Assembly (NCBI GenBank): GCA_947626435.1
Contig: CANQSB010000001.1
Span: 1-64,000, forward strand
From: an uncultured Lachnospiraceae bacterium
Lineage (GTDB): Bacteria; Bacillota; Clostridia; Lachnospirales; Lachnospiraceae
Reading direction: 5' to 3'
Length of the DNA stretch: 64,000 bases
The notes beneath the pieces were generated by a model. That model ran no database searches. It was given only the letters and a program-made list of their open reading frames with translations, and was not told the DNA's origin. A program made the position numbers and the translations under genes. The stretch's first letter is position 1, and each line of letters opens with the position of its first letter. Below are positions 17,466 through 47,816 of the stretch, piece by piece.

Positions 17466-17549
17466 CTCTTTCCTCCCATCTGCTTCCAAAAACAGCCATA
17501 AGGCTATTTAATTTATGCCTGAAAAACCTCAGGCGCAGATTAAATACCC

Positions 17550-18302
17550 CTAAAGCATTGCCATGTACCAGTTTATCATTTTTTCTCCCCACAACGCGCT
17601 GACAAATATGCCTATGGAAAGATAAGGTCCCAACGCGAGCACATGATCCGCCTTTGACACCTTCATTCTAATTATATGCACCACCGAACCAGCAATACAC
17701 CCTATCACAAACGCAAGCACATTACATTCCCAGCCTATCAGCAGCCCGCTCACCGCCATGAGCTTGATGTCCCCGCCGCCTATGCCCCTGCCTTTTGTCA
17801 CAATATAAATAACGAAAAGTACCGCACTAACAGAGAAAAAGCCTATTATGTAATCTTTCCAATCCGCAAGGTCTGTCGCTATCCTCACCGCGCCAAGCAG
17901 TCCTATGAAAATATTCGCCCCGACCGGTATCTCAAATGTCCTCCAATCAATGACGCTTATCACCACAAGCGAACTTGCAAGCAGACAGTACAACACAGCG
18001 CGCACGCTCACACCGCACTGCCAAAACACCACAAGATAAAGGATACCGTTCAGAGCCTCGACAATCGGGTACTGAACGGAGATTTTCGCTCCGCACTTAC
18101 GACACTTGCCACGCAGCGCAAGCCAGCTAAACAACGGCACCAAATCGTACCACTTAAGCTGATAGCCGCAGCTCATACAGTGGCTTCTCGTCGTCACAAT
18201 GTTTTCTTTAATGGGCAGACGGCAGATGCATACATTTAAAAAGCTGCCGATTACTATTCCATAGAGGAATACGACCGCCGCGAAGAATATTGTATAAAAC
18301 AT
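17550..18302 (-). CDS. pilD: Prepilin peptidase, type IV (A24 family)
   Basis: The 250-residue membrane enzyme cleaves the leader peptide of prepilins after glycine and may N-methylate the new terminus. Present are the cytoplasmic zinc-binding pairs CMSC and CRKC (about 42-45 and 68-71) and both catalytic aspartates, in SVIDWRTFEIP (about 118) and GGGDIKLMA (about 178), with about seven membrane segments. The length is normal. It heads the minus-strand pilus operon, 84 bases before the PilM-PilN gene. Confidence 0.95.
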   Translation of the reverse strand: MFYTIFFAAVVFLYGIVIGSFLNVCICRLPIKENIVTTRSHCMSCGYQLKWYDLVPLFSWLALRGKCRKCGAKISVQYPIVEALNGILYLVVFWQCGVSVRAVLYCLLASSLVVISVIDWRTFEIPVGANIFIGLLGAVRIATDLADWKDYIIGFFSVSAVLFVIYIVTKGRGIGGGDIKLMAVSGLLIGWECNVLAFVIGCIAGSVVHIIRMKVSKADHVLALGPYLSIGIFVSALWGEKMINWYMAML

Positions 18303-18439: not shown

Positions 18440-20350
18440 TCAAGGCAGCCACACTTTTTCCCTGTATGCGCTGTTACCATATAAAATGTCATAATCCAAA
18501 ACTTTAAAGTGGCGCGCCGCCTCATTCTGTTTATCACTATAATTTTCTATCAGACCGCCATCGCCGTCCTGGATAAAGCGCCTTGTGTCGGCTTTAAAAA
18601 CACTGCGCTCACAATTCAAAATCCGCGTCATCTCCGTTTCGGGCAGTCCGGCGTATTCAAGGAGCATCTGCGGCAGATAGTTGATATTTTCGCCCGTAAA
18701 TTCCACCTTTTCATCATTAAAATTGCTCCACATGATTACCGGCACAGAATACTGGCGTTTCAGGGCCTCATAATCTGTACCGCTTATCCCTATAGCCTCC
18801 ATAATCTCACTTGAAAAAGAGGGACAGTGGTCGCCATACATCGCAATGACTACAGGTCTATCCTGTTTTTCAAAATAGGACACAATCTGCGAAAAGGCTT
18901 CATTTGCCAGATAAATACCGTTAATATAGTTGACAAAATCATCATAGTATTCGGGGCGAAAAGAGCTTTTGTCAAGCGTCACTGAAATCGGATAATCGTA
19001 ATCATTCACACTCTCCGTCTTATATCCAAGCCTTCGTATATGATTAGCTATGGAAACGGCGAATATAAAGCTCGACGAATCACCACTTTCCTCATATTCT
19101 TTAATAATCTGTTTTACCAGGCTTTCATCAGATATATATTTTGTATAAATGTCCGTATAGTCCATATCGTCATCAAAAATGACTTTGTCAAAATCCATTA
19201 TGGAATAGATTTTATCCCTGTCATAATATTCCCCATAATACGGATGGATGAATGTAGCCTTATAATCCAACGCATGGAAGTAATCCACAATCGATGGCAC
19301 TTTCCGCTCTGCCAGCTCAGAATATATCCCAATGTCCGAAGTCAGGTGCTTTGTATTTATCCCCGTGAGGAATTCCGCCTCGGAGCTGATTGTCCCGCCT
19401 CCAAATATATTTGTCGAGAGATATCCCGTCGAGCATTTTTGCGACAATTCCTTGTATATCCGCATAGGGTCGGATGAAAATATATCAGCAGCCCTGACAT
19501 TATCCGTGTTCCACCACGACTCATTCATAATCACAATGATGTCGGGATGTTGGCTGTCATTTGCCCGTCCGGACGAGGTTTGAATATTGTCAGCAATATA
19601 CCTGTAAGAATCGCTCACATTGTCGGCAGTAATGGCGGCATATTTATCATTTTTCAGAAAATTGTAAAGCACATACCTGTCATTTCCCATGCCAAAGACA
19701 TCGCCGGAATCTATTTCCAAGATAGTGTTTTTTGATTCTATGTATTGATATGCATAACAAACCATGACACCCAGACATGCCACGCCCGCAAGCACCCTTA
19801 ACCTGGCTGTTATTGGCTTTTGCCATATTTTACGCAGACATTCTACGGGATAGCGTTTTCTAAGCCTGTCAAGTATTCCTCCCGCAATGCAAAGAGACAA
19901 TACCATAGCAATGGCTGACAGCTGCTTTACGGTAAATTTAAAATCAAGATAATGGACCGCCATTTCCGCCGCTTCCGTGAGCTTTAAATCATCGAACCTA
20001 AAAAGTTCATTCCGCGCGGCATATTTTATGCTGCTTACATATGCCAATACCATCACAGGCAACGCCGCGGCAAACATAGCCACACCAGTATGTCCGGTAA
20101 AGCATAAAACAGCAAACATAAATAAATTTATCAGCAATGCCTCAAAATCATAATATTGATCGAGTGCATGCTGATTATAGTATTCAAATATGTTAATATC
20201 AGGCTGGAGCAGATAATAGTCCGCCAGATAAGGCATAAAAATCATGAACAGTAGTAATGTTCCCAGAGAAAGTATTACAAAGTAAACTGGATAGCGTACA
20301 TTGGCGTCTGACTTTATTTGGGGATTAAATTTCTGCTTCTTAGCGCGCAT
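18440..20350 (-). CDS. LTA-synthase-like membrane phosphoglycerol transferase
   Basis: ATG at 20350 is chosen over an upstream TTG, giving 636 residues. About five N-terminal membrane segments (within about 20-205) are followed by an extracellular sulfatase-fold domain. The motifs are NESWWNT (metal-binding Glu/nucleophile region, tryptophan-rich as in LtaS-like enzymes), GGGTISSEAEFLTG with the presumed nucleophile Thr, and MYGDHCPSF with metal-binding Asp and His. Enzymes of this family polymerise or decorate glycerophosphate polymers on the cell surface. The gene is downstream of nothing obviously related and lies between the pilin island and pilD. Confidence 0.88.
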   Translation of the reverse strand: MRAKKQKFNPQIKSDANVRYPVYFVILSLGTLLLFMIFMPYLADYYLLQPDINIFEYYNQHALDQYYDFEALLINLFMFAVLCFTGHTGVAMFAAALPVMVLAYVSSIKYAARNELFRFDDLKLTEAAEMAVHYLDFKFTVKQLSAIAMVLSLCIAGGILDRLRKRYPVECLRKIWQKPITARLRVLAGVACLGVMVCYAYQYIESKNTILEIDSGDVFGMGNDRYVLYNFLKNDKYAAITADNVSDSYRYIADNIQTSSGRANDSQHPDIIVIMNESWWNTDNVRAADIFSSDPMRIYKELSQKCSTGYLSTNIFGGGTISSEAEFLTGINTKHLTSDIGIYSELAERKVPSIVDYFHALDYKATFIHPYYGEYYDRDKIYSIMDFDKVIFDDDMDYTDIYTKYISDESLVKQIIKEYEESGDSSSFIFAVSIANHIRRLGYKTESVNDYDYPISVTLDKSSFRPEYYDDFVNYINGIYLANEAFSQIVSYFEKQDRPVVIAMYGDHCPSFSSEIMEAIGISGTDYEALKRQYSVPVIMWSNFNDEKVEFTGENINYLPQMLLEYAGLPETEMTRILNCERSVFKADTRRFIQDGDGGLIENYSDKQNEAARHFKVLDYDILYGNSAYREKVWLP

Positions 20351-20465
20351 TTTCAAACCGCACCTTTCTATGTCTAAATATGTATAATTATAGCACTTTT
20401 GCCCAAAAATAAAAACTCCTAAAGAAACTTTAGCTCTCAGAATTTTTCATGTTCGTATACGCCTT

Positions 20466-20494
20466 TTCTCAATTAACCGCCCCTTAAGTATAAT
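20466..20494 (+). promoter_or_regulatory. Promoter of the first pilin cassette
   Basis: TATAAT at 20489-20494 with a weak -35 (TTCTCA, 20466-20471) at 17 bases. The stretch from 20474 through the -10 is nearly the same in all three pilin cassettes. Confidence 0.7.
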
Positions 20495-20791
20495 ATATGT
20501 ATAAAAACAAACGGCTGCGGCGGGAGGGTTTGTTGTCTTATGTGGCATATTTTACGAAATATGCGGCGCGGCCGGTACATATGAGTTGTCCGCTGAGTAC
20601 AGTCATGAGGGCATTTGCCAGAGGATGGGAAGTGATGTATGTATATGCAGCATGGCTGAAGGGTGCTGTTCATGAGGCAGGGTGGATAAGGTTTTAGTGT
20701 AACTGTCAACCAAATATTATGATTAAGCAGATGTTGTATCTTTTGGATGCGGCAATTGCTTAGTCAGAAAAATTAACAATGGAAAGGACAT
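20472..20791 (+). promoter_or_regulatory. Conserved structured leader of pilin cassette 1
   Basis: About 300 nt between the promoter and the pilin start are conserved in three cassettes (here, 26201-26517 minus, 29376-29700 plus). The hairpin at 20545-20564 has 8 bp and a UACG loop. A long-range stem pairs 20721-20729 with 20757-20765, ending 15 bases before the ribosome site. In cassette 3 the same stems keep pairing through paired or wobble changes. A 66-codon ORF inside is not conserved in frame between copies, so this reads as RNA or DNA signal, not protein. It does not show the cyclic-di-GMP (GEMM) riboswitch core. Confidence 0.7.
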
Positions 20792-21271
20792 GTGAATCCA
20801 ATGAACAAATTAAGTGAACTGAAAGAAAAGAAACTTGATAACAAAGGTTTCTCCCTTGTGGAGTTGATTATTGTTATCGCTATTATGGCTGTATTGATTG
20901 GTGTGTTGGCACCTACATACCTTAGATATGTGGAGAAGTCAAGGAGATCCGCTGACCTTGACAGCATTGAGTCGATGGTTAGTGCAGTTGAGATTTATTT
21001 ATCTGATCCTGACACGCAAACGGCTATAGGTACCAACGCTACGGCAACAATTACAGCTGGTGGAACCAATACTGCTGTTACTCCTGATGCTAATGTTGCT
21101 AAGAAAGCTTTGGAATATGCTGGTATCAACAATAATCCAATAATGAAAAGTCAGGAATTTGGTAAGTATACACTCACTTGGACCAGAACTTCTGCTACTG
21201 GTGCTAATGCTGGTCAGTGGACTTTGGCAATTACGGATAATACTACATTAGCAGCCGCTTTAGGGCGCTAA
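20792..21271 (+). CDS. Major type IV prepilin, cassette 1
   Basis: The 159-residue protein has a 19-residue charged leader (MNKLSELKEKKLDNKG) cut before FSLVELIIVIAIMAVL, with Glu at +5. The start is GTG at 20792 or ATG at 20801; GGAAAGG lies at 20781. After YLRYVEKSR the sequence diverges fully from the other two pilins. The mature domain is Thr/Ala/Asn-rich (NATATITAGGTNTAVTPD) and has no cysteine, so no disulphide D-region. It should form the pilus fibre after processing by the peptidase at 17550. It has its own promoter, leader and terminator. Confidence 0.92.
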   Translation: MNPMNKLSELKEKKLDNKGFSLVELIIVIAIMAVLIGVLAPTYLRYVEKSRRSADLDSIESMVSAVEIYLSDPDTQTAIGTNATATITAGGTNTAVTPDANVAKKALEYAGINNNPIMKSQEFGKYTLTWTRTSATGANAGQWTLAITDNTTLAAALGR

Positions 21272-21301
21272 TCTGTTAATTTAAATAACAATACGAATCA
21301 C

Positions 21302-21341
21302 AAAACCGCCAAAGGAAAATTTGCCTTTGGCGGTTTTGCGG
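21302..21341 (+). terminator. Terminator of pilin cassette 1
   Basis: The perfect stem AAAACCGCCAAAGG/CCTTTGGCGGTTTT lies about 30 bases after the pilin stop and ends in a U-run. Confidence 0.9.
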
Positions 21342-21528
21342 TTAATATCATTATAAGGGACAAATAAAAGAAAAAGAGGTTATGAACGGACTGTTCTTTT
21401 CTATGTATTAGGCAAAACCAGAGGCGCAATTATTTCAAATAAAGTATACTTTCCAAAGCAATGTATGCTATACTATTAGCAGATATAAAGCATATACATC
21501 ATAGCACATTCAGAAAGCGAGGCATTGT

Positions 21529-23226
21529 ATGGCAAAAAAAGTAAAGCTTCCCGTAGGAATTGAAGACTTTGAAGAAATGCGTACCATGGGATATTATTAT
21601 GTTGACAAAACCGGAATAATCCGTGACCTTATAGATAATCTTGGGAAAGTGAACCTTTTCACCCGCCCAAGGCGATTCGGTAAAACCTTAAATATGAGTA
21701 TGCTCAAATTTTTCTTTGAAATCGGCAACGATGGCTCACTCTTTGACGGACTGGAAATTTCCAGTGAAAAAGAACTCTGCAGCGAATATATGGGAAAATT
21801 TCCGGTTATTTCAATCAGCTTGAAAAACGCCTCCAGCGCTACTTTCGATGAAGCAAAACAGCAATTGCGCAGTATTATAGGTAAAGAAGCGTTAAGATTT
21901 TCTTTCCTTGCGGAGAGTGACCGTCTGTCAGAAACAGAGCGCAAACAATACAAGGCACTGATTCATGTTGATGATGATGGAATATTTACAATGGCAGACG
22001 AACTTTTAGAGGGAAGTCTTCTGTTGCTTTCAAGCTGTCTTCAAAAACATTATGGACAAAAGGCAATTTTGCTGATTGACGAATATGATGTCCCGCTTGA
22101 TAAGGCATACCAGTCAGGGTACTATGATACCATGGTAGATTTCATCAAAGCCCTGTTTGGGCAGGTACTCAAGACAAACAGCAGCCTGTATTTCGCCGTG
22201 CTTACGGGTTGTCTTAGGATTTCAAAGGAAAGTATCTTTACCGGTCTCAATAACTTTAAAGTATATACCATAAAAGATGTGCAATATAATGAATATTTCG
22301 GGTTTACGGATGCAGAAGTCAGAGAAATGCTTATATACTATGGATTGATGGGAAAGTACGAAGTCATGAAAGAGTGGTATGACGGCTACCGTTTTGGTAA
22401 TTTGGAAGTTTACTGCCCATGGGATGTGGTGAATTACTGTCATGCACTAAAAATGAATCCGGAGGAGACCCCGCAAAACTACTGGGCGAACACGAGCAGC
22501 AACGATATCATAAGAAACTTTATAAGCAGAGCCGATGCGTCTACAAGGGATGAGATTGAATCGCTGGTGAACGGCGGCAACATAAAAAAAGAAATTCATC
22601 AGGAACTGACCTACCGAGATTTGGATTCGGAAATTGATAACTTGTGGAGTATCCTGTTTACGACCGGATATCTGACGCAGGATGGGAATGATGAAGATGG
22701 CATATCAAGGCTAATCATTCCAAACCGTGAAATTTACCGGATATATGTCCGACAGATACGCAAATGGTTTCAAGATGAAACTAAGAAAGACCTGCATAAA
22801 TTAGATGATTTTCGCACTGCATTTGAGGAAAACGATACAGCTGCAATAGAAAAAATTTTTACATCCTATCTTAGAAAAACCATCAGTATACGCGATACCA
22901 ATATCAGGAGAGAAATGAAAGAGAATTTTTATCACGGAATTTTGCTGGGATTATTTACAAGCGTGGATGGCTGGAAAGTTATATCAAACGCAGAGTCCGG
23001 CGAGGGCTACAGTGACATCAGCGTGGAGATTGAGGACAAGGAAATCGGTATTATCATTGAATTAAAATATGCTGAGAATGCAGCATTGGAAAACGGCTGC
23101 AATGAGGCGCTGAAACAGATTAAAGACAGAAACTATGAGGAGGCATTGATTGACGACGGAATGAAAGCCATACGCCGATATGGGATTGCCTGCTACAAGA
23201 AACGCTGCATGGTAATATCAGGGTGA
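21529..23226 (+). CDS. AAA-ATPase-like/PD-(D/E)XK protein, copy 1
   Basis: The 565-residue protein has the AAA-ATPase-like domain (PF09820 type; Walker A in RPRRFGKT, about 47-53; Walker B in LLIDEYDVPLD, about 185). The C-terminal PD-(D/E)XK_9 (DUF1703) nuclease-like domain has GYSDISVEI and IIELKYAEN. These proteins are abundant multicopy genes in gut Firmicutes and Bacteroidetes, and their role is not established. A mirrored copy at 23494-25191 is about four-fifths identical by eye, with differences concentrated at about 100-200 and the last 80 residues. The upstream region (about 21460-21528) is also shared with that copy. Confidence 0.88.
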   Translation: MAKKVKLPVGIEDFEEMRTMGYYYVDKTGIIRDLIDNLGKVNLFTRPRRFGKTLNMSMLKFFFEIGNDGSLFDGLEISSEKELCSEYMGKFPVISISLKNASSATFDEAKQQLRSIIGKEALRFSFLAESDRLSETERKQYKALIHVDDDGIFTMADELLEGSLLLLSSCLQKHYGQKAILLIDEYDVPLDKAYQSGYYDTMVDFIKALFGQVLKTNSSLYFAVLTGCLRISKESIFTGLNNFKVYTIKDVQYNEYFGFTDAEVREMLIYYGLMGKYEVMKEWYDGYRFGNLEVYCPWDVVNYCHALKMNPEETPQNYWANTSSNDIIRNFISRADASTRDEIESLVNGGNIKKEIHQELTYRDLDSEIDNLWSILFTTGYLTQDGNDEDGISRLIIPNREIYRIYVRQIRKWFQDETKKDLHKLDDFRTAFEENDTAAIEKIFTSYLRKTISIRDTNIRREMKENFYHGILLGLFTSVDGWKVISNAESGEGYSDISVEIEDKEIGIIIELKYAENAALENGCNEALKQIKDRNYEEALIDDGMKAIRRYGIACYKKRCMVISG

Positions 23227-23493
23227 ATTTATTTATCTTCAAAGGTTATAGTCATGAAATCAGAAAGTCTGGCAATGCAGATGGCATAAATGGTCTTATC
23301 ATTTAAAAATCAATGTATTAACATCATTAAGGCGTGTAGGTATCTATGCTTAGATTATGCTCATACTGAGCGTATCAAAAAAGGCTGTCACAAAAAGGAA
23401 TGCAAACGCAAGATATAGTATAATTTGGCTTAATTTTATACTGTATCTTGTATGCATAATCCTTGTTACGCCAGTCTCTTTTTGGAACTAAAA
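23227..23493. other. Centre of the inverted duplication
   Basis: This 267-base gap separates the two convergent ATPase genes. It holds an AT-rich inverted repeat at about 23408-23455 (CAAGATATAGTATAA against TTATACTGTATCTTG), which could end transcription from both sides. No gene is visible. Confidence 0.6.
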
Positions 23494-25191
23494 TTATTCT
23501 GATATTACTTTGCAGCGTTTTTTGTAGCAGGCGATGCCGTACTTGTATATGATGTTCATTCCATTGTCAGCCAGTATCTCCTCATATCTTTTGTCATGAA
23601 TTTGTTTCAATGCTTCTTTGCAGCCGTTATCCAGCGTCGCATTCTCGGCGTATTTTAATTCGATTATTATACCGATTTCCTTATCTGCAATCTCTATGCT
23701 GATATCACTGTAGCCGTCGCCGGCTTCTGCGTTTGACTTGATATTCCAGCCCTCCATACCTGCAAATAATCCCAACAATACTCCGTGATAAAAATTCTCT
23801 TTCATTTCCTGCCTGACATTTGTGTCTCGTATGCTGATGGTTTTTCGCAGATATGATGTAAAAATTTTCTCTATTGCAGCCGTATCGTTTTCCTCGAATG
23901 CCCTGCGAAAATCGTTTAATTTATTAGGGTCTTTTTTGGTTTCATCTTGAAACCATCCGCGGATTTGTCGGACATATATCCAGAGAATTTCCTTGTTTGG
24001 AATGACAAGCTTTGACACGCCGGCTTCGTCATTCCCGTCCTGTGTCAGATATCCGGTAGTAAAGAGCAGGCTCCAAAGGTTGTCAATATAGGAATCCAAA
24101 TCTCTGTAGGTCAGTTCCTGATGAATTTCCTTTTTTATGTTTCCGCCGTTTACCAGCGATTCAATCTCATCCTTTGTTGACGCATCAGCTTTGTTTATTA
24201 GATTTCTGATGATATCATTACTGCTTGTATTTACCCAGTAGTTCTGCGGGGTTTCCGCCGGATTCATCTTCAATGCATGGCAATAGTTTACCACATCCCA
24301 TGGACAGTAAACTTCCAAACTGCCAAAGCGGTAGCCGTCATACCATTCTTTCATGACCTCATATTTTTCCATAAATCCGTAGTATGCAAGCATTTTCCTG
24401 ACTTCGTCATTCGTAAAACCGAAATATTCATTGTACTGGACATCCTTTATCGTATATATTTTAAAATTGTTAAGTCCGGTAAAGATGCTTTCCTTTGAAA
24501 TTCTAAGGCAGCCTGTAAGCACCGCAAAATATAAGCTGCTGTTTGTCTTGAGCGCCTGTCCAAACAGCGACCTAAGCAATTGAACCATGACATCATAGTA
24601 CCCTGACTGGTATGCCTTATCAAGCGGGACATCGTATTCATCAATCAGCAGGATTGTTTTTCGCCCGTAATGTTTTTGCAAAAAAACGGACAGAAGAAAC
24701 AGACTGTTTTCCAGCATATCATCCGACATTGCAAACTCGCCGCTGTCATTCAATTCAATCAGCTTTGCATATTGTTGGCGTTCGGTTTCTGTCAGGTTAT
24801 TACAGTCTGAAAGGAATGAAAATCTGATTGCCTCTGTTCCTATAACGGTTCGAAGTCTGTTTTTCGCCTTATCAAAGGAAGCGCCTTCTACATTTTTCAG
24901 GCTGATTGAAATAACCGGAAATTTCCCCATATATTCGCTACAGAGTTCTTTTTCATTGGAAATTTCCAGTCCGTCAAAGAGTGAGCCGTCATTGCCGATT
25001 TCAAAGAAAAATTTAAGCATGCTCATATTTAAGGTTTTACCAAATCGCCTTGGGCGGGTAAAAAGGTTTACTTTCCCTAAATTGTCTATAAGGTCAAGGA
25101 TTATTTTGGTTTTGTCAACATAATAATATCCCATGGTACGCATTTCTTCAAAGTCTTCAATTCCTACGGGAAGTTTTACTTTTTTTGCCAT
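23494..25191 (-). CDS. AAA-ATPase-like/PD-(D/E)XK protein, copy 2
   Basis: The 565 residues are collinear with copy 1 at 21529-23226. Walker A (RPRRFGKT), Walker B (LLIDEYDVPLD) and the C-terminal GYSDISIEI and IIELKYAEN are intact. Both copies are full length, so neither is under obvious decay. Divergence at about 100-200 (for example NVEGASFDKAKNRLRTV against NASSATFDEAKQQLRSI) shows that the duplication is old or that the segment varies. It is transcribed toward copy 1 and away from pilin cassette 2. Confidence 0.88.
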   Translation of the reverse strand: MAKKVKLPVGIEDFEEMRTMGYYYVDKTKIILDLIDNLGKVNLFTRPRRFGKTLNMSMLKFFFEIGNDGSLFDGLEISNEKELCSEYMGKFPVISISLKNVEGASFDKAKNRLRTVIGTEAIRFSFLSDCNNLTETERQQYAKLIELNDSGEFAMSDDMLENSLFLLSVFLQKHYGRKTILLIDEYDVPLDKAYQSGYYDVMVQLLRSLFGQALKTNSSLYFAVLTGCLRISKESIFTGLNNFKIYTIKDVQYNEYFGFTNDEVRKMLAYYGFMEKYEVMKEWYDGYRFGSLEVYCPWDVVNYCHALKMNPAETPQNYWVNTSSNDIIRNLINKADASTKDEIESLVNGGNIKKEIHQELTYRDLDSYIDNLWSLLFTTGYLTQDGNDEAGVSKLVIPNKEILWIYVRQIRGWFQDETKKDPNKLNDFRRAFEENDTAAIEKIFTSYLRKTISIRDTNVRQEMKENFYHGVLLGLFAGMEGWNIKSNAEAGDGYSDISIEIADKEIGIIIELKYAENATLDNGCKEALKQIHDKRYEEILADNGMNIIYKYGIACYKKRCKVISE

Positions 25192-25347
25192 ACAATGCCT
25201 CGCTTTCTGAATGTACTATGATGTATATCTGCTAATAGTATAGCATACATTGAGAGGAAAAGTATATGTTGTTTCGGTAAGTAATTATACTGATTTGTGA
25301 AAAAACATATTGTTCGCATACTGCAAATGTATCACAATAATATTAGG

Positions 25348-25480
25348 TAATTGTGAAATGTGTTCTAAACTGTCCGAATTTAGGCAAAATATATAAAAAC
25401 GCGGCTAGGCGCTCCGCGAGACGCCGCTTATTTTATATATTTTGCCTAAATTCTATGTTGTCTAATAGAGTTTCGTAAAT
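25348..25480 (-). repeat. AT-stem palindromic repeat, copy A
   Basis: The core at 25376-25453 is a near-perfect palindrome: GAATTTAGGCAAAATATA pairs with TATATTTTGCCTAAATTC around a GC-rich centre. The flanks (AATTGTGAAATGTGTTCTAA on one side, TCTATGTTGTCTAATAGAG on the other) match those of copies B-D in reverse orientation and of the core-less sites at 49441 and 53281. Confidence 0.85.
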
Positions 25481-25557
25481 GTCTAAACACAATAATATAG
25501 CTAGGAGAAAGCAGAGTATCAGGAAGTGGGGAATATATTATGTAGTGGTGGCATAAT

Positions 25558-25592
25558 TGAAAAACCGCCAAGGGAAAGAGTTCCTTGACGGT
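25558..25592 (-). terminator. Terminator of pilin cassette 2
   Basis: On the minus strand CCGTCAAGGAA/CCCTTGGCGG forms a stem followed by a U-run. It lies about 140 bases past the pilin 2 stop. The sequence resembles the cassette 1 terminator, as expected for an inverted duplicate. Confidence 0.75.
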
Positions 25593-25732
25593 CCTGTAGA
25601 GCTACCAAAATTTTTATAATCTACTTTTCAGCTTTTGACACTGTTTAGCAAGATAGTATTTACTAGCAAATAGAGTGTAGGTTATAAGTATTGATAAATA
25701 AAACTAATCAATAATAAAGCAAATCCTATATG

Positions 25733-26200
25733 TTAAGGAGTGCCAGATGTGTCAAAATCATCCTCAACTGTCACAGTGGAAGAACTAACAGTAACGGTTA
25801 TTGTTACTTTATCACCTGATGTCTGCTGATTTTGAAGATTCGGTAATTTATCCTTATCATTAGGTAAACCTGCTGCTGCTAACGCTTCTGCTATGCCACC
25901 ACCAGTAATATCAGCATCAACACCAGTTTTTCCCTTTCGGACAAGAACTACTGTACCACTCTCCAATGGAGTCGTTGCATCAGGATCGGCACCATATACT
26001 TGAATAGCGTCTTTAATTGCCGTTATATTATCCCTATCACTGGCTGCCCTCGATTTTTCAACATACCTCAAATACTGCGGTGCCAACACACCAATCAATA
26101 CAGCCATAATAGCGATAACAATAATCAACTCCACCAGGGAGAAACCTTTGTTATCAAGTTTCTTTTCTTTTAGTTCATTTAATTTGTTCATTGGATTCAC
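25733..26200 (-). CDS. Major type IV prepilin, cassette 2
   Basis: The 155-residue protein has the same leader and helix as cassettes 1 and 3 (MNKLNELKEKKLDNKG^FSLVELII, then APQYLRYVEKSR). After about residue 52 it has its own domain, ending TVTVEDDFDTSGTP, with no cysteine. The start is GTG or the ATG three codons later, as in cassette 1. It is transcribed opposite to cassettes 1 and 3. The sharp border between the shared N-terminus and the unrelated C-terminal domain is what recombination or diversifying selection would leave. Confidence 0.92.
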   Translation of the reverse strand: MNPMNKLNELKEKKLDNKGFSLVELIIVIAIMAVLIGVLAPQYLRYVEKSRAASDRDNITAIKDAIQVYGADPDATTPLESGTVVLVRKGKTGVDADITGGGIAEALAAAGLPNDKDKLPNLQNQQTSGDKVTITVTVSSSTVTVEDDFDTSGTP

Positions 26201-26517
26201 CTATCCTTTCCATTGTTAATTTTTTCTGACTAAGCAATTGCCACATCCAAAAGATACAGCACACCCTTAATCATAATATTGGTTGACAGTTACACTAAAA
26301 CCTTATCCACCCTGCCTCATGAACAGCAGTCCCCAGCCATGGTGTACATGCATCACTTCCCATCCTCCAGCGAATGCCCTCATGACTGTACTCAGCGGAC
26401 AACTCATATGTACCGGCCGCGCCGCATATTTCGTAAAATATGCCACATAAGACAACAAACCCTCCCGCCGCAGCCGCTTGTTTTTTATACATATATTATA
26501 CTTAAGGGGCGGTTAAA
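26201..26517 (-). promoter_or_regulatory. Conserved structured leader of pilin cassette 2
   Basis: This copy is very close to the cassette 1 leader, including the UACG-loop hairpin. A one-base difference near the 5' end (TATAAAAAACAAG against TATAAAAACAAAC) shifts the reading frame of the internal ORF, although the nucleotides on both sides are almost the same. That is good evidence that the leader is non-coding. The long-range stem near the ribosome site keeps 7 of 9 pairs. Confidence 0.7.
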
Positions 26518-26523
26518 ATGCAA
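26495..26523 (-). promoter_or_regulatory. Promoter of pilin cassette 2
   Basis: On the minus strand TTGCAT (26518-26523) and TATAAT (26495-26500) are spaced by 17 bases. This is the best -35 of the three cassettes. Confidence 0.75.
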
Positions 26524-26645
26524 TACTTTTACTAAAATTTCTAAATATTTTCTAAATATTTTTATCAATATATCCAATAAGGCTTGTTCAGCGTGTCAAC
26601 ACATTCATTCAAACTGGCTACTGCGTGATAATTTTTTATATCAAA

Positions 26646-26945
26646 TTATTCGCAATCTTCACAAATTCCATACTCAATCATGAGGTGCTGTTGATATTCC
26701 TCGTCATGTACTGCTCGCTTTAAGTCGTCTATCCGATTCTCCTCCAACAAAATAGCGACAAGTCTGTTGATTTCGTTGCGACCATGTTTTTCCCCGCGTC
26801 TTTCCCCAATAGCAATACCACGCTTTTCACCGATAACAATGCCGCGCTTTTCACCGCGTTCTTCCCCGATAGCAATCCCCCTATTTTCAATTTTATCCAA
26901 AATCTCACACATTTTAATCCCCTCCCGCTTTTCTGTTTCCTGCAA
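26646..26945 (-). pseudogene. 3' duplicate of the Rpn-like nuclease gene
   Basis: The frame opens only at a TTG without a ribosome site and encodes the last 99 residues of the gene just upstream (QETEKREGIKMCEILDKIENR, a GIAIGE-type repeat tract, then RNEINRLVAILLEENRIDD). It is a tandem duplicate of the 3' end of 26983-27960, with a changed repeat count and a few substitutions (YGICEDCE against YGICKDCE). The catalytic domain is missing. It might still be translated from the internal ATG of MCEILDK. Confidence 0.7.
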
Positions 26946-26982
26946 TGATTAACAAAAATCTTAAAATGCAGTTAGTGACAGA

Positions 26983-27960
26983 TTACTCACAATCTTTGCA
27001 AATTCCATACTTAATCATAAGTTGCTGCTGATATTCTGTATCATGCACTGCTCGCTTTAAGTCATCTATCCGATTCTCCTCCAACAAAATAGCGACAAGT
27101 CTGTTGATTTCGTTGCGACCATGTTCTTCCCCAATAGCAATTCCGCGTTTTTCCCCGATAGCGATTCCATGTTCTTTACCTATGGCAATGCCACGCTTTT
27201 CCCCAATAGCAATTCCGCGTTCTTCCCCGATAGCAATCCCCCTATTTTCAATTTTATCCAAAATCTCACACATTTTAATCCCCTCCCGCTTTTCTGTTTC
27301 CTGCAATGATTCCAAAACTTCATAATATCTCTTATCGCCAGTCAATGCCTGCAGCAATTTCAAAAATTCATCTATGTGTTTAATCGTTTGTGCGTTCGGA
27401 ATATAGTCCGAGCCTTTGCGCTTGTTGACAAAATATTCGGCAATAATGCGGAAATCACTATGGAAATTGTCGAGCTTATCGTCTAAAAAAGCGACTTCCA
27501 CAAGATTTATTTTATAGTCATTTACATATGGTTTCAGCCTTTCAGGGATTGTCAGACATTCATGCAGGCTGCGCGGCTGATTCCAGTGTTTTGTGCCGAA
27601 ATACAGTACAATGGTGACAACCGGATATTTTATCTTGCCCTTATTGTGGCTTAGCAACTGCCCTCGATATGACGCGCCGTCATATCCAATAATTCGCATT
27701 GGCATATATGGTTCTGCCTCTGTTTCATGTTCAAAACCGTAGAGCGCGAAACAAACCCCAGATGGAATCCAGCTTTTGGATACGTCGCGTTCTTGTTCAT
27801 GGATTTTGCTGTTAAATTTGTACTGGCTTTTATCCTTGACGTTTTCCAGCGCATTTTCGGATACGATTTGTTCGCCGTCAAACAATACACCATTTATAAT
27901 GTCAGCAAACACATCATTATAATCAGCCAATATTTTCTCAGTAATATCTTTTGCGCCCAT
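26983..27960 (-). CDS. Rpn-family recombination-promoting nuclease/transposase-like protein
   Basis: The 325-residue protein starts at ATG after AAAAGGAG. The N-terminal PD-(D/E)XK region (about 1-215) has the typical start YNDVFADIINGVLFDGEQIV, plus VVTIVLYFGTKHW and VEVAFLDD. A tract of GIAIGE(E/K)(R/H) repeats (about 243-283) leads to a helical tail. Rpn (YhgA-like) proteins are DNA endonucleases that promote recA-independent recombination in E. coli. Their C-terminal repeats vary in number between copies, as here. It lies beside a partial tandem duplicate and within the pilin island. Confidence 0.82.
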   Translation of the reverse strand: MGAKDITEKILADYNDVFADIINGVLFDGEQIVSENALENVKDKSQYKFNSKIHEQERDVSKSWIPSGVCFALYGFEHETEAEPYMPMRIIGYDGASYRGQLLSHNKGKIKYPVVTIVLYFGTKHWNQPRSLHECLTIPERLKPYVNDYKINLVEVAFLDDKLDNFHSDFRIIAEYFVNKRKGSDYIPNAQTIKHIDEFLKLLQALTGDKRYYEVLESLQETEKREGIKMCEILDKIENRGIAIGEERGIAIGEKRGIAIGKEHGIAIGEKRGIAIGEEHGRNEINRLVAILLEENRIDDLKRAVHDTEYQQQLMIKYGICKDCE

Positions 27961-28123
27961 TCACAAACTCCTTTTATTATATAGTAACATAACTTGTGCC
28001 TTTCTGCCATAATTTAATGCAGTGAACTTATGTTCTTGTGTATTTTACCAAACTATTGTTCTAAAGTCAATATAAAATTAGAACATATATTCTTTTTGTG
28101 AAATGATTATGCAAAATTGCAAC

Positions 28124-29155
28124 TTATACCAAATCAGGCGATTGGATTTTGTTGATTTCCGTTTTCAGTTCATCGAAAGTTCTATGACCGTATACCGACT
28201 TTTCAATATCTTTTCCAAGGGAATGTCCCATCAACATTCGTTTGGAAAGGTCGTCTACTCCATATTTGTCGCAAAGCCATGAAAATGTATGTCGGCAGTC
28301 GTGCGGCGTGTGCTTTGTGCCCGAATTGGATGTCGCCAAGCCGAGAGAGTTAAGCGTTTTATAAAAGTTTTTACGGAATTTATTTACTGCAAAAACTTCA
28401 TTCCCCGATAAATATTTTGCAGCGAAGTCTTTTGCAAAAGCTTGTACTGCGGGATGTAGCGGGACGATTCTGTTTTTGCTTACGGCAGTTTTCACGCCTC
28501 CTTTAAAATATTGTTCCGTTTCATTATATTGTATTGTCCGATAGGCTGAAATGCGAAAACCTGTATATATCATCAAAAGAATAATTTTGACAATTTCTTT
28601 GTCGCGATTTTTCCAAAGAATTTTCAGCGCTCTTGATGAAAAAGGCACGCCGTTTTCGTCATCGTCGGGAATGTTTATGCGGACGAACTGTGAATAGTCC
28701 TTTTCGACAATATCATTTTGAATGGCATAGGCATACATTCCCCTGAAAAGTGAAACAATCAGCTCAAGGCTTGAATGTTTCAAAGGACATGTGTCGATGA
28801 TTTCCTGCAAATCATTTTTTCTTAAATCTGCAAATCTCATTTCGTGAAGTTTTTGACAGTTTTTAAACGCCGCGTGGGCGGAATACCCTGCTGATGTTGA
28901 CAATTTTCTTTTAGAATTTGTGTACTTGCTTTCAAAATACTGTTCGTACAACTCTGCAAAAGTGATATTCATGTATTGGGCGGCTGGAGCACTATGATGG
29001 TTCGAAAGTATGGTATAGCAAAGCTGCGCAAGATTCGGAAACAGCTTATCCGTCGCGGATATTTCTGCCGGGTGCACCGGATATCCGCATAGTGGGCACA
29101 AAATAGCCTTGTCAGAAATAGATTTCCCACATTCGGGACATGGAAATAATGCCAT
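28124..29155 (-). CDS. Tyrosine recombinase with an N-terminal zinc ribbon
   Basis: The 343-residue integrase-fold protein has all catalytic residues: Arg201 (YTGFRISA), Lys223, His285 and Arg288 (HDCRHTF), His311 (LMGHSL) and Tyr322 (VYGHRTF). The first 25 residues are a zinc ribbon with CPEC and CPLC pairs (Cys6, 9, 20, 23), an uncommon addition. A core-binding SAM-like domain lies at about 65-155. A clear AGGAGG precedes the ATG. It lies between pilin cassettes 2 and 3, with no other phage or ICE genes close by. It may act on the pilin island, but no target sites are proven. Confidence 0.9.
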   Translation of the reverse strand: MALFPCPECGKSISDKAILCPLCGYPVHPAEISATDKLFPNLAQLCYTILSNHHSAPAAQYMNITFAELYEQYFESKYTNSKRKLSTSAGYSAHAAFKNCQKLHEMRFADLRKNDLQEIIDTCPLKHSSLELIVSLFRGMYAYAIQNDIVEKDYSQFVRINIPDDDENGVPFSSRALKILWKNRDKEIVKIILLMIYTGFRISAYRTIQYNETEQYFKGGVKTAVSKNRIVPLHPAVQAFAKDFAAKYLSGNEVFAVNKFRKNFYKTLNSLGLATSNSGTKHTPHDCRHTFSWLCDKYGVDDLSKRMLMGHSLGKDIEKSVYGHRTFDELKTEINKIQSPDLV

Positions 29156-29375
29156 ATAAAATGACCTCCTTAATAAAATTATCTTATAAAATCAAGTAGG
29201 GCTATCGCTTTAACGAATGGAATTTCGTGAAGCGTCAGCCCCTTGATTTTTACTTGTTTTTTCAAATTTACACTGTTGGTTTGGGTGTTTTTATTGCTTT
29301 TGTTTATATTATACGGTTGGTGAATTGCTTTAGCAATATTGAGCCGGGAATACCGTTTATTTTGATAAAAGGCGA

Positions 29376-29700
29376 TTTAACCGCCCCCTAAGTATAATAT
29401 ATGTATAAGAAATAAGCGGCTGCAACAGGAGGATTTTTTACTTTATATGGTGTATTTTTATGGAATATACTATGCAGTCAGCGGTACATATGAATTATCC
29501 ACTGGGTACAGGCATTAGATTTTTGCCAGATAACGGGGGAAGTTGTGTGCGTGTACAGTATGATTGGAAACTGTTGTTTATCGGTCAGTGTGGATAAAAT
29601 TTTAATGTAACTGTCAACCAAGTATCATGATTGAGCAAATGTTGCGTACATGGATTATAGCAGTTGCTTAGTCAAAAAAAATTAACAATGGAAAGGATAT
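29376..29700 (+). promoter_or_regulatory. Promoter and structured leader of pilin cassette 3
   Basis: The -10 TATAAT is at 29393-29398, with the conserved TTTAACCGCCCCCTAAG just before it. The leader is the most diverged of the three, yet the hairpin at 29450-29470 still forms 8 pairs. Relative to cassette 1 it has a C-G to U-A double change and wobble changes. The stem 29629-29637 with 29665-29673 also keeps pairing. Conserved single-stranded blocks include GTAACTGTCAACCAA and GGTACATATGA. Confidence 0.7.
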
Positions 29701-30171
29701 GTGAATCCAATGAACAAATTAAATGAACTAAAAGAAAAGAAACTTGATAACAAAGGTTTCTCTCTTGTGGAGTTAATCATTGTTATCGCAATTATGGCAA
29801 TTCTGATTGGCGTGTTAGCGCCTCAGTACATGAGGTATGTAGAACGGTCAAGAGAGGCAACAGATGTTGATGCTATTGATTCTGTAGTTTCGGCAGTGGC
29901 AACTATTTTAGCAGATCCAATGAATAAGTCTGATACGGCTACTATAACGCCGAATACAAATGGTGTAGTAACGGCAGTTCTTAAGGCCGGTGATGCTGCA
30001 TCGACTGATGGTGATACAGCACTAAAGGAGATTATTCCTCAGATGCCTACGCTGAAAAGCAGCGCGTATAAAAAAGACTGGGAAATTACTTTTAAATCAA
30101 ATGGTGAAGTGAATGTCACTCCTAAGGAGTTAGCAGATGCATTAGGATATAGTTCTCCATCTGGTTCCTGA
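29701..30171 (+). CDS. Major type IV prepilin, cassette 3
   Basis: The 156-residue protein has the shared leader and helix (FSLVELIIVIAIMAIL) with minor changes (YMRYVERSR). Its C-terminal domain is unrelated in detail to the other two (TITPNTNGVVTAVLKAG, then KKDWEITFKSNGEVNVTPKE). No cysteines are present. It stands just before the pilC-pilB operon, facing it convergently. Together with the other two it gives the organism three alternative fibre subunits. Confidence 0.92.
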   Translation: MNPMNKLNELKEKKLDNKGFSLVELIIVIAIMAILIGVLAPQYMRYVERSREATDVDAIDSVVSAVATILADPMNKSDTATITPNTNGVVTAVLKAGDAASTDGDTALKEIIPQMPTLKSSAYKKDWEITFKSNGEVNVTPKELADALGYSSPSGS

Positions 30172-30474: not shown

Positions 30475-31689
30475 CTACATAGTATCCAGTGCCTGATACA
30501 TCGTCAACATCGGCGCCATACAAGCCGCCACAAGTCCTCCGACAACAACCGCCAGCACCACAATAATCATCGGCTCCATCGCCGCCATTAGCGACTGTAC
30601 CGCCATCTCCACTTCCTCATCATAATAATCGGCAAGCTTATCCAGCATCTCCTCCGTATTGCCGGACTCCTCTCCAATCCTCAGCATATGATAAACCATC
30701 GGCGGGAACATCCCGCAATCCTCCAGCGGCCGCGACAGCGGCATGCCAATCGACACCTGCTCCGCCGCTTCCTTCAAAGCCTCCTTAAAATACACATTTC
30801 CCATAATATCCGCCACAATATTAGTAGCCTCCACCAGAGAAACGCCGGACCCCATCAAAGTTCCCATAGTCCTAGCCATCTGCGACGATGCCGACTTAAC
30901 CACCAGATTTTTAATAATCGGCATCTGCAGCGCAATCTTTCCAAAGAAATGCTTGCCCAAATCAGTCTTGGCAAACGCGCTAATCCCCACAACGGCAGCA
31001 ATCACCGCAATCACCACCAACAGCCAATGCGCAATCAGCGAATCACTCAAAAACACATAAAATTTCGTAATCCAAGGCAAATCCGTCCCCAACTGCGAGA
31101 ACATATCCTCATACGACGGAATGACCTTCACAAGCATAACAATCGAAATAATAATCGCAATAATCAACACCGCAATCGGATAAATCATCGCCTTTTTGAC
31201 AAGCGACCGCGTATGGCTTGAGCGTTCAAGCTGCGTGGAAACTCTCTCCATGGCAATGTGCAGCGTACCGGACGCCTCGCCTGCCGCCACCATATTAATC
31301 ATGATACTCGGAAATACCTTGGGATGCGCCGACAAAGCCTGCGCCAGCGTGTCGCCCTTTTCAATGCTAAGCCTGACCTCGCGCAGCGCCTCTTTCAGAC
31401 GCTTATTCTCCGTCTGCTCATATAGCATCCTCAGCGTTTCAATAATCGTAACGCCCGCCTTGTTCATGCTCACGAACTGCCGGCACATAACGCTAAGGTC
31501 ACGCGGACTCGGCCACCCGCCAATCTCTATATTTATGTCCTGCGTCAAAAGATTCTGCTGCTTAACCTCTATAACAGTCAAACCCTGGCTCTTGATATTG
31601 ACAATAGCCTCATCCTCAGTATCCGCCTCAATAACGCCATTAATCACCTTTCCAAGCTTGTTTATAGCCTGATAACCGTACTTTGTCAT
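30475..31689 (-). CDS. pilC: PilC/GspF platform protein of the type IV pilus
   Basis: The 404-residue inner-membrane protein has two repeated GspF domains (about 60-190 and 265-390), each with hydrophobic helices. The duplicated segments are MCRQFVSMNKAGVTIIETLR and ARTMGTLMGSGVSLVEATN. It begins with the pilus-specific N-terminal strand region KYGYQAINKLGKVINGVIEA. PilC is the platform on which the PilB ATPase drives pilin extrusion. It starts 18 bases after pilB, so the two form one operon. Confidence 0.95.
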   Translation of the reverse strand: MTKYGYQAINKLGKVINGVIEADTEDEAIVNIKSQGLTVIEVKQQNLLTQDINIEIGGWPSPRDLSVMCRQFVSMNKAGVTIIETLRMLYEQTENKRLKEALREVRLSIEKGDTLAQALSAHPKVFPSIMINMVAAGEASGTLHIAMERVSTQLERSSHTRSLVKKAMIYPIAVLIIAIIISIVMLVKVIPSYEDMFSQLGTDLPWITKFYVFLSDSLIAHWLLVVIAVIAAVVGISAFAKTDLGKHFFGKIALQMPIIKNLVVKSASSQMARTMGTLMGSGVSLVEATNIVADIMGNVYFKEALKEAAEQVSIGMPLSRPLEDCGMFPPMVYHMLRIGEESGNTEEMLDKLADYYDEEVEMAVQSLMAAMEPMIIVVLAVVVGGLVAACMAPMLTMYQALDTM

Positions 31690-31707: not shown

Positions 31708-33414
31708 TTATATGTCAAACGAAATCCTCACAACCTCCGCCATAGAGGTAGTGCCATCAAGGACATACTCCGAACCGCTCATCCTAAGCGTCCTCATGCC
31801 CTCTTTCATAGCCTGCTCTTTCAATACTTCCGCGCCCTCGCGCTTGCTGATAATCCTCTTGAGCGTCGGCGTCATCTTCATAATCTCATATACGCCGATA
31901 CGCCCCTTGTAGCCTGTACCGTCGCACTTAGGGCAGCCGCAAGGCTCATATATCGTGATGTCCTTGCTCGTGTCCTGCTGCATAAACTCTTTTTCCTCAG
32001 TCGTCGCAAGACGCGGCTTTCTGCACACAGGGCAGAGGCGGCGCACAAGTCGCTGCGCGATAACGCCTATGACGGAATCCGCTATCAGATATGACTCTAT
32101 GCCCATATCCTCCAGTCGCGTGATAGAACTTGCCGCGGAATTGGTATGCAGCGTGCTTACCACCAAATGCCCCGTAATAGACGCCTGCACCGCTATCGCC
32201 GCCGTCTCGGTATCACGAATCTCGCCTATCATGATAATGTCCGGGTCTTGTCGCAGTATCGAACGCAGCGCGCTTGCAAATGTAAGCTCCGCCTTGGGAT
32301 TGACCTGCACCTGATTGATACCGTCTATATTCGCCTCGACAGGATCCTCTACCGTAATGATGTTTACATCGCTTGTGTTCAGCTCACTAAGCGCCGTATA
32401 AAGCGTCGTAGACTTACCGCTTCCGGTAGGTCCTGTAACAAGCAGTATTCCATGAGGATTTTTGATGATGTAGTCAAACTGTTCCAGCTCATAGGGCTTT
32501 AATCCCAGCTGGCTCTTTTCCTTTGTGAGCGCCATCTTCGCCGTAAGTCGCATAACGACCTTCTCCCCAAATACTGTGGGAAGTATCGACACACGAATAT
32601 CATACTCCACATGGTCTACCACCTGCGTGATACGCCCGTCCTGCGGCTTTCTCTTTTCGGAAATGTCCATGCCGCCGATTATCTTGATACGCGCGATAAT
32701 TGACGGGAGGACTGATACATTGTACTTTGCCTTGTTTTGGAGGACACCGTCTATACGGTAGCGGACGCGGATATATTCCTCCATAGGCTCTATATGTATA
32801 TCGGACGCTCTCTGGCGCACCGCGAGGTCTATCATCTCCTTGACGAGCTTTACTATCGGAGAACTGTTTAAATCCTCCTCCTCGCGCTCGTCTTTTTCCA
32901 CATCAAGCTTTTTCTCCTTGGCATAGCGGTCAAGGGCAGTCCTCGTCTCGTCCTGTCCATAGTATCTGTCTATCGCAAGCATGATGCTTCGCGTAGTGGC
33001 TACGACAGGCTCCACCTGATAACCCGTAACTATGGAAATATCCTCCTGCGCATAAGTGTCAAGCGGATTTTCCATCGCAACCCTGAGCGTGTTTTTGTTG
33101 TCCTCGCTGAACGCGAAAGGCATCATTATGTACTTTTTGAGAAGTCCGACCGGAATAAGCGCCGTCACCGCTCTATCTATGTTGATGTTCTGCAGGTCTA
33201 TCCGCTCAAGCCCAAGCTGCTTGCATAGGGCTGCCGCGATATCGTCCTCGGTGATAACACCCTCATCTACAAGAACCTCACCGAGCTTCATGTTGCGCTG
33301 CTTCTGCTTGGCAAGCGCTATCTCAAGCTGCTCCGCCGTAATGGAACCGCTCTGTACAAGCAAGTCCCCCAATCTTATTTTGCTTACTCTTTTTGGTTGA
33401 ATAGTTAAACGCAT
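31708..33414 (-). CDS. pilB: PilB/GspE pilus assembly ATPase with an MshEN domain
   Basis: The 568-residue hexameric extension motor has the Walker A GPTGSGKST (328-336), Walker B IIMIGEIRD (about 393-401), Asp/His boxes and a zinc site of four cysteines (461, 464, 494, 497). The N-terminus is an MshEN-type domain with two repeats, KIRLGDLLVQSGSITAEQL and MKLGEVLVDEGVITEDDI. In MshE this motif binds cyclic di-GMP, so pilus extension may be tied to that messenger, an inference from the family. No PilT retraction ATPase is in the window. Confidence 0.95.
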   Translation of the reverse strand: MRLTIQPKRVSKIRLGDLLVQSGSITAEQLEIALAKQKQRNMKLGEVLVDEGVITEDDIAAALCKQLGLERIDLQNINIDRAVTALIPVGLLKKYIMMPFAFSEDNKNTLRVAMENPLDTYAQEDISIVTGYQVEPVVATTRSIMLAIDRYYGQDETRTALDRYAKEKKLDVEKDEREEEDLNSSPIVKLVKEMIDLAVRQRASDIHIEPMEEYIRVRYRIDGVLQNKAKYNVSVLPSIIARIKIIGGMDISEKRKPQDGRITQVVDHVEYDIRVSILPTVFGEKVVMRLTAKMALTKEKSQLGLKPYELEQFDYIIKNPHGILLVTGPTGSGKSTTLYTALSELNTSDVNIITVEDPVEANIDGINQVQVNPKAELTFASALRSILRQDPDIIMIGEIRDTETAAIAVQASITGHLVVSTLHTNSAASSITRLEDMGIESYLIADSVIGVIAQRLVRRLCPVCRKPRLATTEEKEFMQQDTSKDITIYEPCGCPKCDGTGYKGRIGVYEIMKMTPTLKRIISKREGAEVLKEQAMKEGMRTLRMSGSEYVLDGTTSMAEVVRISFDI

Positions 33415-47389: not shown

Positions 47390-47816
47390 TAGTTAGTGTA
47401 ATATATACATATAATAACAATTACCAAAAAATTATTGAAGTAGAGATTGTGCTGCTACGCACCTTCGTGGTCAAAAGAAATGCGGGAAGGGGCACACCCG
47501 CCAATAATTTTTTGGTATTTTTTATGCCGTATTGTATTTTTATACTTTTATTGCGCATAATATTCACTATTTCAGTTTGATTTCATATTGTGTTCACTTT
47601 AGTTTTATTTATTTTCATTGATTTTTGTCAAAATCAGTCTTAATATTTTCGTATAATTAATGCATAAATTTTCACTTGATTTATATTGGATAATGATGTA
47701 TATTTGTTTTAAGTCCGAAAATTACCGTCGCTGCGCGGGGGCGGAAATAAATATGAATAAATATAAAAAATTTAAAACGCGCAATGAAAATTTTAGTAAA
47801 CGGAGGATTGGTTTTT
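47390..47816. other. Gap before argG with a palindromic element at 47422-47517
   Basis: TACCAAAAAATTATTG and CAATAATTTTTTGGTA enclose a core of about 64 bases with a GC-rich centre. TATAAT at 47652-47657 is a likely -10 for argG, with no good -35. I see no T-box stem or other known riboswitch. Confidence 0.6.

Follow-up and report, generated by a model that had tools for sequence, protein, structure and literature searches.

In Clostridium perfringens, the type IV pilin gene pilA2 is described as being transcribed in the order pilD-pilB2-pilC2-pilA2, and its 5′ untranslated region (UTR) is cut by RNase Y (PMC7395162). According to the same account, the cut pilA2 message lives longer and carries a predicted 5′ stem-loop, and deletion of the UTR strongly lowered the monocistronic message but PilA2 protein just slightly (PMC7395162). 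RNase Y is credited with a guanosine preference (PMC4608709); at its model sites, a G is reported to precede the cleavage point and a hairpin to follow at a distance of two or three nucleotides, with an effect of its pairing but not of its loop (PMC11321564). Here we analyse a 64,000-nt stretch of DNA from an uncultured Lachnospiraceae bacterium (contig CANQSB010000001.1, positions 1 to 64,000; hereafter the window), in which each of three leaders of about 300 nt immediately precedes a type IV pilin gene with an N_methyl segment, and we relate these leaders to a hairpin that recurs before pilin genes in other Lachnospiraceae. This hairpin is a new RNA motif that probably works like the known RNase Y-matured leaders.

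The cyclic di-GMP-I (GEMM, RF01051) riboswitch is also found before pilin genes in clostridia. The window leaders differ from it, as an earlier note on this DNA had stated: GEMM has no match in the window, and its best match in the whole genome is sub-threshold (18.5 bits). No other known class was recovered at a leader above its gathering cut-off. Rfam 15 at gathering level gave no leader match in the window, in 20 loci of the genus or in 10 loci of the family, and at E up to 5 over 20300-29900 no family exceeded its cut-off at a leader; a microRNA-type family produced a sub-threshold match inside leader 1 (20718-20770, E 0.46). The literature search found no paper on such a pilin leader and little on type IV pili of Lachnospiraceae. 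The main texts of PMC8040213 and PMC2864571 contain no word beginning with pili or pilus; their supplements lie outside this statement, and an unnamed earlier prediction there is possible.

Three pilin genes share a separate leader unit

Own-genome BLAST and alignment bear out the earlier report of three leaders before the three pilin genes, with leader matches at 20472-20830 (+), 26162-26516 (-) and 29377-29739 (+). Taking each leader from its promoter-like block to the base before ATG, and comparing the copies pairwise together with their flanks and coding parts, we obtained lengths of 328, 325 and 333 nt for copies 1, 2 and 3 and identities of 94.1% (1-2), 76.1% (1-3) and 75.9% (2-3), which confirms the sequence drift described for copy 3. 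The 400 nt upstream of the leaders share 39-44% identity, the N-terminal coding parts of the pilins 80-87% and the C-terminal coding parts 44-46%. Because the leaders are far more alike than the upstream flanks and the C-terminal coding parts, the leader is a separate unit.

Of 38 genomes of the genus, 17 encode a pilin N-terminus like the window's (E up to 1e-6). Window-type leaders were also seen in G017, the nearest relative among the genomes compared, which has three copies in the same order and orientation (95.7-96.3% identical to each other), and in G032, G034 and G022. They share one layout, which opens with a promoter-like block (TTAA-N7-TTAAG-TATAAT or close variants of it) and continues through the 5′ helix (P0) and the long helix (P1) to a GUAACUUUAUUAACC-like stretch and the 3′ hairpin (P2) ahead of the ribosome site. 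The P1 base reads GAAUUAUCCG...CGNAUAAGAUA in the genus leaders and is drifted in the window and in G017; in the window it is GAGTTGTCCGC/GTGGATAA in copies 1 and 2 and GAATTATCCAC/GTGGATAA in copy 3.

Folding z-scores were -2.9, -1.5 and -3.4 for leaders 1, 2 and 3; copy 2 alone is unremarkable, since its folding is equalled or bettered by 9 of 100 shuffles. Two helices proposed from the letters were recovered. The hairpin enclosed by P0 (20545-20564) retains all 8 pairs in copy 3 through changes of C-G to U-A, A-U to G-U and U-A to U-G (compared by eye), and in the stem before the ribosome site, P2, 9 pairs still form in copy 3, as do 8 in copy 2. The former hairpin was not seen in the same form in the folds of G032, G034 and G022. 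Within the genus, 95.7% of 46 cells are paired in P0 (8 sequences; covariation score reached by 39 of 500 shuffles) and 88.9% of 90 cells in P2 (10 sequences; 86 of 500 shuffles). P0 and P2 fit a structure, but the covariation within the genus is too thin for proof.

A covarying hairpin recurs before pilin genes of the family

Beyond the genus, the best 80 of at least 389 pilin-like loci by pilin similarity yielded 78 loci, two of which (L094 and L123) have almost no upstream DNA. Before the ribosome site of these Lachnospiraceae-type pilin loci, we found a recurrent hairpin of about 40 nt with the form GAAUUA-stem-RUAGGG-stem-UAAGAUA, which lies shortly upstream of the pilin start, often just behind pilC. 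A strict hairpin search around UAGGG was positive in 43 of 76 upstream regions compared with 8 of 1520 shuffles. The base preceding UAGGG is R in 42 of these 43 hairpins, and 31 of the 43 loci show a pilC-like end upstream.

For alignment, we used 36 copies with a clean GAATTA (at most one mismatch) and TAAGATA, omitting L095 and L137 as near copies of L091. Invariant in all 36 are the G, A, A, U and U of the 5′ side, two loop G residues and UAAGAUA, with the qualification that the conservation of the GAATTA and TAAGATA letters is inflated because rows were chosen by them. The invariant G (G5, 36/36) stands two nucleotides before the AU-rich stem. Pairing in this stem reaches 93.3% of 421 cells (73.2% when shuffled), 77 cells are altered on both sides (24.0 when shuffled), and the covariation score is 0.484 versus 0.160 for shuffled and 0.068-0.130 for slid controls. 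RNAalifold, unaided, also predicted this stem, with eight of its pairs and compensatory changes in five. The stem of the family hairpin is strongly covarying.

Excess covariation in a wider alignment, on which the earlier note had made its RNA reading depend, is thus present, for the central hairpin of the relatives. The proposal of an RNA regulator stands in kind through this family-wide covarying hairpin before pilins, but the particular helices named for it are weakly backed within the genus. For 11 loci that are not part of the alignment, pairing holds in 108 of 110 stem cells (35-65 when slid), a value biased upward because the structural model had picked these loci, and UAGGG is present in 11 of 11; they come from 12 further whole-genome loci, L163 being omitted for want of an exact GAATTA.

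Within the family the hairpin is tied to pilin genes

A covariance model of the hairpin (R1) was searched over 79 loci (847 kb), namely the 78 pilin loci and one viral contig. It gave 42 matches at E up to 3.7e-6 in the 78 pilin loci (36 of which built the model, with six new), and all 42 end 39-136 nt before the pilin GF codon. Since these loci are the best by pilin similarity, 42/78 is not a family rate. The weaker matches (E 0.001-0.52) comprise another three before pilins (L106, L086, L134) as well as two at other places (L144, L138).

In whole genomes of the family, 5 of 5 matches from an order search and all 13 rows from a family search precede pilins, and so do 16 of 16 distinct family loci from the whole-genome searches, four of which (L159, L160, L162, L171) sit on contigs that, by their equal length, already carry loci of the 78-locus set. 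Genomes with matches numbered at least 12 of 392, at least 12 of 397 and at least 4 of 391 in the order, family and class searches, respectively; these tallies are lower bounds because 14 first-look candidates per genome were scored and the filters were strict. Elsewhere, a hairpin with the motif base and without a UAGGG loop (GAATTAAAACGC...GCGTTTTAAGATA) precedes a microcompartment shell-like gene (L183, genome G1027) and is probably a chance match.

A proposed role in maturation of the pilin mRNA

We propose that the family element acts in cis on the major type IV pilin mRNA as a determinant of its maturation or stability, with RNase Y cutting the RNA at the invariant G, and we give this reading about an even chance of being right. 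Maturation or stabilisation is the most likely function because the hairpin combines an invariant G with an AU-rich stem, occupies the same place and gene order as the pilA2 leader, and occurs where RNase Y is encoded (750.7 bits to TIGR03319 in the window's genome, cut-off 454.35). Cleavage by RNase Y would fall after the invariant G, which stands two nucleotides ahead of the stem, and the downstream RNA would begin with a protective hairpin and be long-lived. Through such RNA maturation, the element could uncouple pilin output from the output of the assembly genes. The loop, kept elsewhere and lost in the window's genus, may be the site where a protein or small RNA tunes this step. The window leaders would then represent a genus-specific, enlarged form of a cis-acting pilin-mRNA element that is widespread in Lachnospiraceae.

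The pilA2 5′ UTR, as described, resembles the family element in standing before a type IV pilin gene behind pilC, in placing a 5′ stem-loop on the matured message and in its proposed purpose; the likeness is one of description, and the GAAUUA, RUAGGG and UAAGAUA features lie outside the comparison. It differs from the window, where the pilins are not behind pilC. The RNase Y sites of gapR/cggR and glnR in Staphylococcus aureus and Bacillus subtilis share the G before the cut and an AU-rich hairpin two or three nucleotides downstream (PMC11321564). In contrast, the loop is reported as unimportant there (PMC11321564) and is conserved in the family, the P1 of the window is much longer, and cleavage here is predicted. 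In the window, a G lies shortly before the hairpin at 20583 in copy 1, with counterparts in copies 2 and 3, although this is a weak criterion.

Such an element would bear on the question of how one operon gives few pilus machines yet very many pilins. As a mark of the major pilin gene, the conserved hairpin lends itself to mapping, deletion and exchange. Its presence predicts that the pilin message is processed, and its fixed loop that a partner exists. It also offers a sequence tag for major pilins in genomes.

Several observations weigh against this proposal. RNase Y is described as indifferent to the loop, yet the family loop is conserved, and a stem three pairs longer strongly reduced cleavage, while the P1 of the window is long (PMC11321564). 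Furthermore, the RNase Y consensus is reported to be weak in B. subtilis (PMC11780869), which makes the G-plus-hairpin match weak evidence. At the family level, 36 of the 78 pilin loci lack a clear R1 match, and the number of pairs changed on both sides (9 of 13) is reached by 28 of 500 shuffles. Outside the family, 10 of 10 R1 matches are not at pilins, with no pilin-like N-terminus within 700 nt. Seven of these came from the order search (7/7; E 0.003-0.008), four of them, all from one genus, preceding a dnaA-like gene (judged by eye). The other three came from the class search (3/3; E 2e-5 to 4e-4), one of them lying before a microcompartment shell-like gene, and are taken as chance because their E-values over about 390 genomes mean about 0.01, 0.01 and 0.16. 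In the window itself, R1 has no match in the leaders with filters off and E up to 10 (the best window match, E 0.86, lies elsewhere), UAGGG is absent from all three leaders, and the base alone does not rise above shuffles, being reached by 34 (copy 3), 109 and 129 of 200.

Intermediates link the window leaders to the family hairpin

The base GAAUUA...UAAGAUA is paired but drifted in the window; P1 of leader 1 is the drifted counterpart of the family base GAAUUAU...AUAAGAUA, and position 20583 that of the invariant G. Since R1 has no match there, the loop is absent and the base alone does not exceed shuffles, the membership of the window rests on intermediates (G032, G034, G022, G023, G011 and L161). 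Through these, we read the window leaders as an enlarged, drifted genus version of the family hairpin.

The base test was applied to 25 upstream regions. Five were reached by 0 of 200 shuffles (G023, G011, two copies of G032, and G034; base GAATTATCCG...CGNATAAGATA), G028 by 1, two regions of G022 by 13 and 20, window copy 3 by 34 and the other 16 by 55-199; the six copies of the window genome (G000) and G017 span 34-145. G023 and G011, two species of the window's genus, carry short hairpins with the base GAATTATCCG...CGTATAAGATA, 1-2 nt behind a pilC-like end. The same base encloses an enlarged inside in the two copies of G032 and in G034, and in L161, from another genus (g30), it is joined with the GUAGGG loop of the family (GAATTATCCGCTCGGGTAGGGACGGGCGAATAAGATA). 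The hairpin-like base of G028 lies 377 nt behind pilC. Unlike G023 and G011, other members of the genus, the window included, have the element before stand-alone pilins, where it follows a promoter-like block and has additional helices. Alignment with the leaders of G032, G034 and G022 covers the 3′ part of the window leaders; with G032 and G034 it also covers P0 and the 5′ side of the base. The window's genus retained the base and lost the loop, which suggests an essential role of the base there.

Alternative explanations

The main rival is a trans-acting factor, either a protein or a small RNA, that recognises the RUAGGG loop together with the GAA/GAUA base and governs how stable the pilin mRNA is or how it is translated, the RNase Y cut being secondary; we consider this possible but doubtful, and such a partner may act together with RNase Y maturation. 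Maturation does not account for the conserved loop, an indication of a partner acting in trans: RUAGGG stays constant and the surrounding stem varies (R before UAGGG in 42/43; UAGGG in 11/11 further loci), and an RNase Y hairpin, as described, would need no fixed loop (PMC11321564). Against this, the loop is lost in the window's genus although the base stays, and no trans-acting partner of the loop is known. A CsrA site requires GGA, and the element does not fit one, with UAGGGA in just 18 of 36 aligned copies; this candidate was set aside. The idea that the loop pairs with UCUCCCU codons of the pilin itself was dropped after inspection by eye because these codons vary.

We also advance, as a tentative view, that the RUAGGG hairpin is a new cis-regulatory RNA family, predicted to be recognised by a protein or small RNA and to set how much type IV pilin is made across Lachnospiraceae. 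For the window's genus, this view has the loop replaced by large lineage-specific helices and the same control point rewired, with the base kept.

The earlier note had also considered the leaders as a recombination target, and a DNA-level recombination or gene-conversion module could exchange pilin tails and still preserve the likeness of the heads. Between leaders 1 and 2 the identity is 94.1%, compared with 43.6% for the C-terminal coding parts, the same pattern holds among the three copies of G017 (95.7-96.3%), the copy 3 tails of G000 and G017 are unrelated (49.1%), and genes for an integrase and a Transposase_31 protein are close by. The leaders of copies 1 and 2 also resemble each other more than do the N-terminal codons of their pilins (86.9%), as gene conversion would give, but copy 3 shows the reverse, with leaders at 76% versus 80-83%. 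Recombination also leaves unexplained the compensatory changes in single-copy hairpins of other genera and the fixed position before the pilin, and we judge it improbable.

A small-metabolite riboswitch, which would fit a covarying stem in a 5′ region whose loop and base flanks are conserved, appears very improbable: the element is a single short hairpin, neither an expression platform nor an alternative pairing is visible, it often lies between cistrons behind pilC, and the Rfam scans of the window, 20 genus loci and 10 family loci gave no match above cut-off. A small upstream open reading frame from ATGAATTATCC is hardly credible, for although ATGAATTATCC opens short frames in several genus members, ATG precedes AATTA in just 12 of 36 aligned copies, G022 has AAGAATTATCC, and frames and lengths vary between copies.

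Gene neighbourhood and further observations

The window carries a type IV pilus cluster (Table 1). Leader-pilin copies 1 and 2 face each other, copy 2 being inverted, and pilin 3 is convergent with pilC. The first two belong to an inverted pair of units (20472-26517), in which a leader, a pilin and an AAA-ATPase_like/PDDEXK_9 gene (21529-23226, +) face a counterpart made of a near copy of the ATPase gene (23494-25191, -) followed by leader and pilin (25733-26516, -); the Pfam scan covered the plus-strand ATPase gene of the pair. Between pilins 2 and 3 (26983-29155, -) lie two genes, one of Transposase_31 (YhgA-like) type and one of phage-integrase type that includes a zinc ribbon.

Table 1. 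Positions of leader elements, pilin genes and pilus assembly genes in the window
Feature	Position	Strand	Remarks
PilM	15819-17489		
Peptidase A24	17550-18302		
Leader 1	20473-20800	+	Block to base before ATG; alignment and own-genome BLAST
Promoter-like block TTAA-N7-TTAAG-TATAAT	20473-20499	+	TATAAT at 20489-20494
Leader 1 P0 (5′ helix)	20512-20574	+	Arms 20512-20518 / 20568-20574; encloses hairpin 20545-20564
Leader 1 P1	20586-20689	+	Base arms 20586-20593 / 20682-20689
Leader 1 P2 (3′ hairpin before ribosome site)	20720-20766	+	Arms 20720-20728 / 20758-20766
Ribosome-binding site GGAAAGGA of pilin 1	20781-20788	+	
Pilin 1 (N_methyl)	20792-21271	+	ATG 20801; GTG 20792 a possible start
Pilin 2 (N_methyl)	25733-26200	-	
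Leader 2 (inverted)	26192-26516	-	P1 base arms 26395-26402 / 26303-26310; P2 arms 26266-26273 / 26227-26234
Leader 3 (diverged copy)	29377-29709	+	P1 base arms 29495-29502 / 29590-29597 (GAATTATCCAC / GTGGATAA)
Leader 3 P2	within 29377-29709	+	Arms 29628-29636 / 29666-29674
Pilin 3 (N_methyl)	29701-30171	+	
pilC (PilC-type T2SSF)	30475-31689	-	
PilB-type T2SSE	31708-33414		

The promoter-like block is kept in copies 1-3 and in G017, G032, G034 and G022; at up to 3 mismatches, its pattern was found in 2 of 38 genus genomes, the window's own and G017. Directly before TATAAT, TTAA recurs at 11-base spacing and without a common -35 hexamer (20473-20499, 26490-26516, 29377-29403 and relatives), and this conserved repeat is a possible activator site. 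A -35-like TTCTCA occurs in copy 1 only, and such sites are no commoner here than in shuffles (36 versus 32.3).

At the third pilin place, the tails of the window genome and G017 share 49.1% identity, which is chance level, and the leaders 75.5%; this suggests that a pilin was replaced there between the two genomes. Other pilins of the genus have different conserved leaders, one GTATACGGGTGGCAG-type in L050, L052 and L054 (G031, G010 and G012) and a second type in L055 and L057 (G027 and G004). These five loci gave no Rfam match, and their leaders are possibly further structured RNAs. A skipping-rope RNA (RF02924) lies elsewhere in the window at 47430-47509 (+), with 57.5 bits at a cut-off of 36.7.

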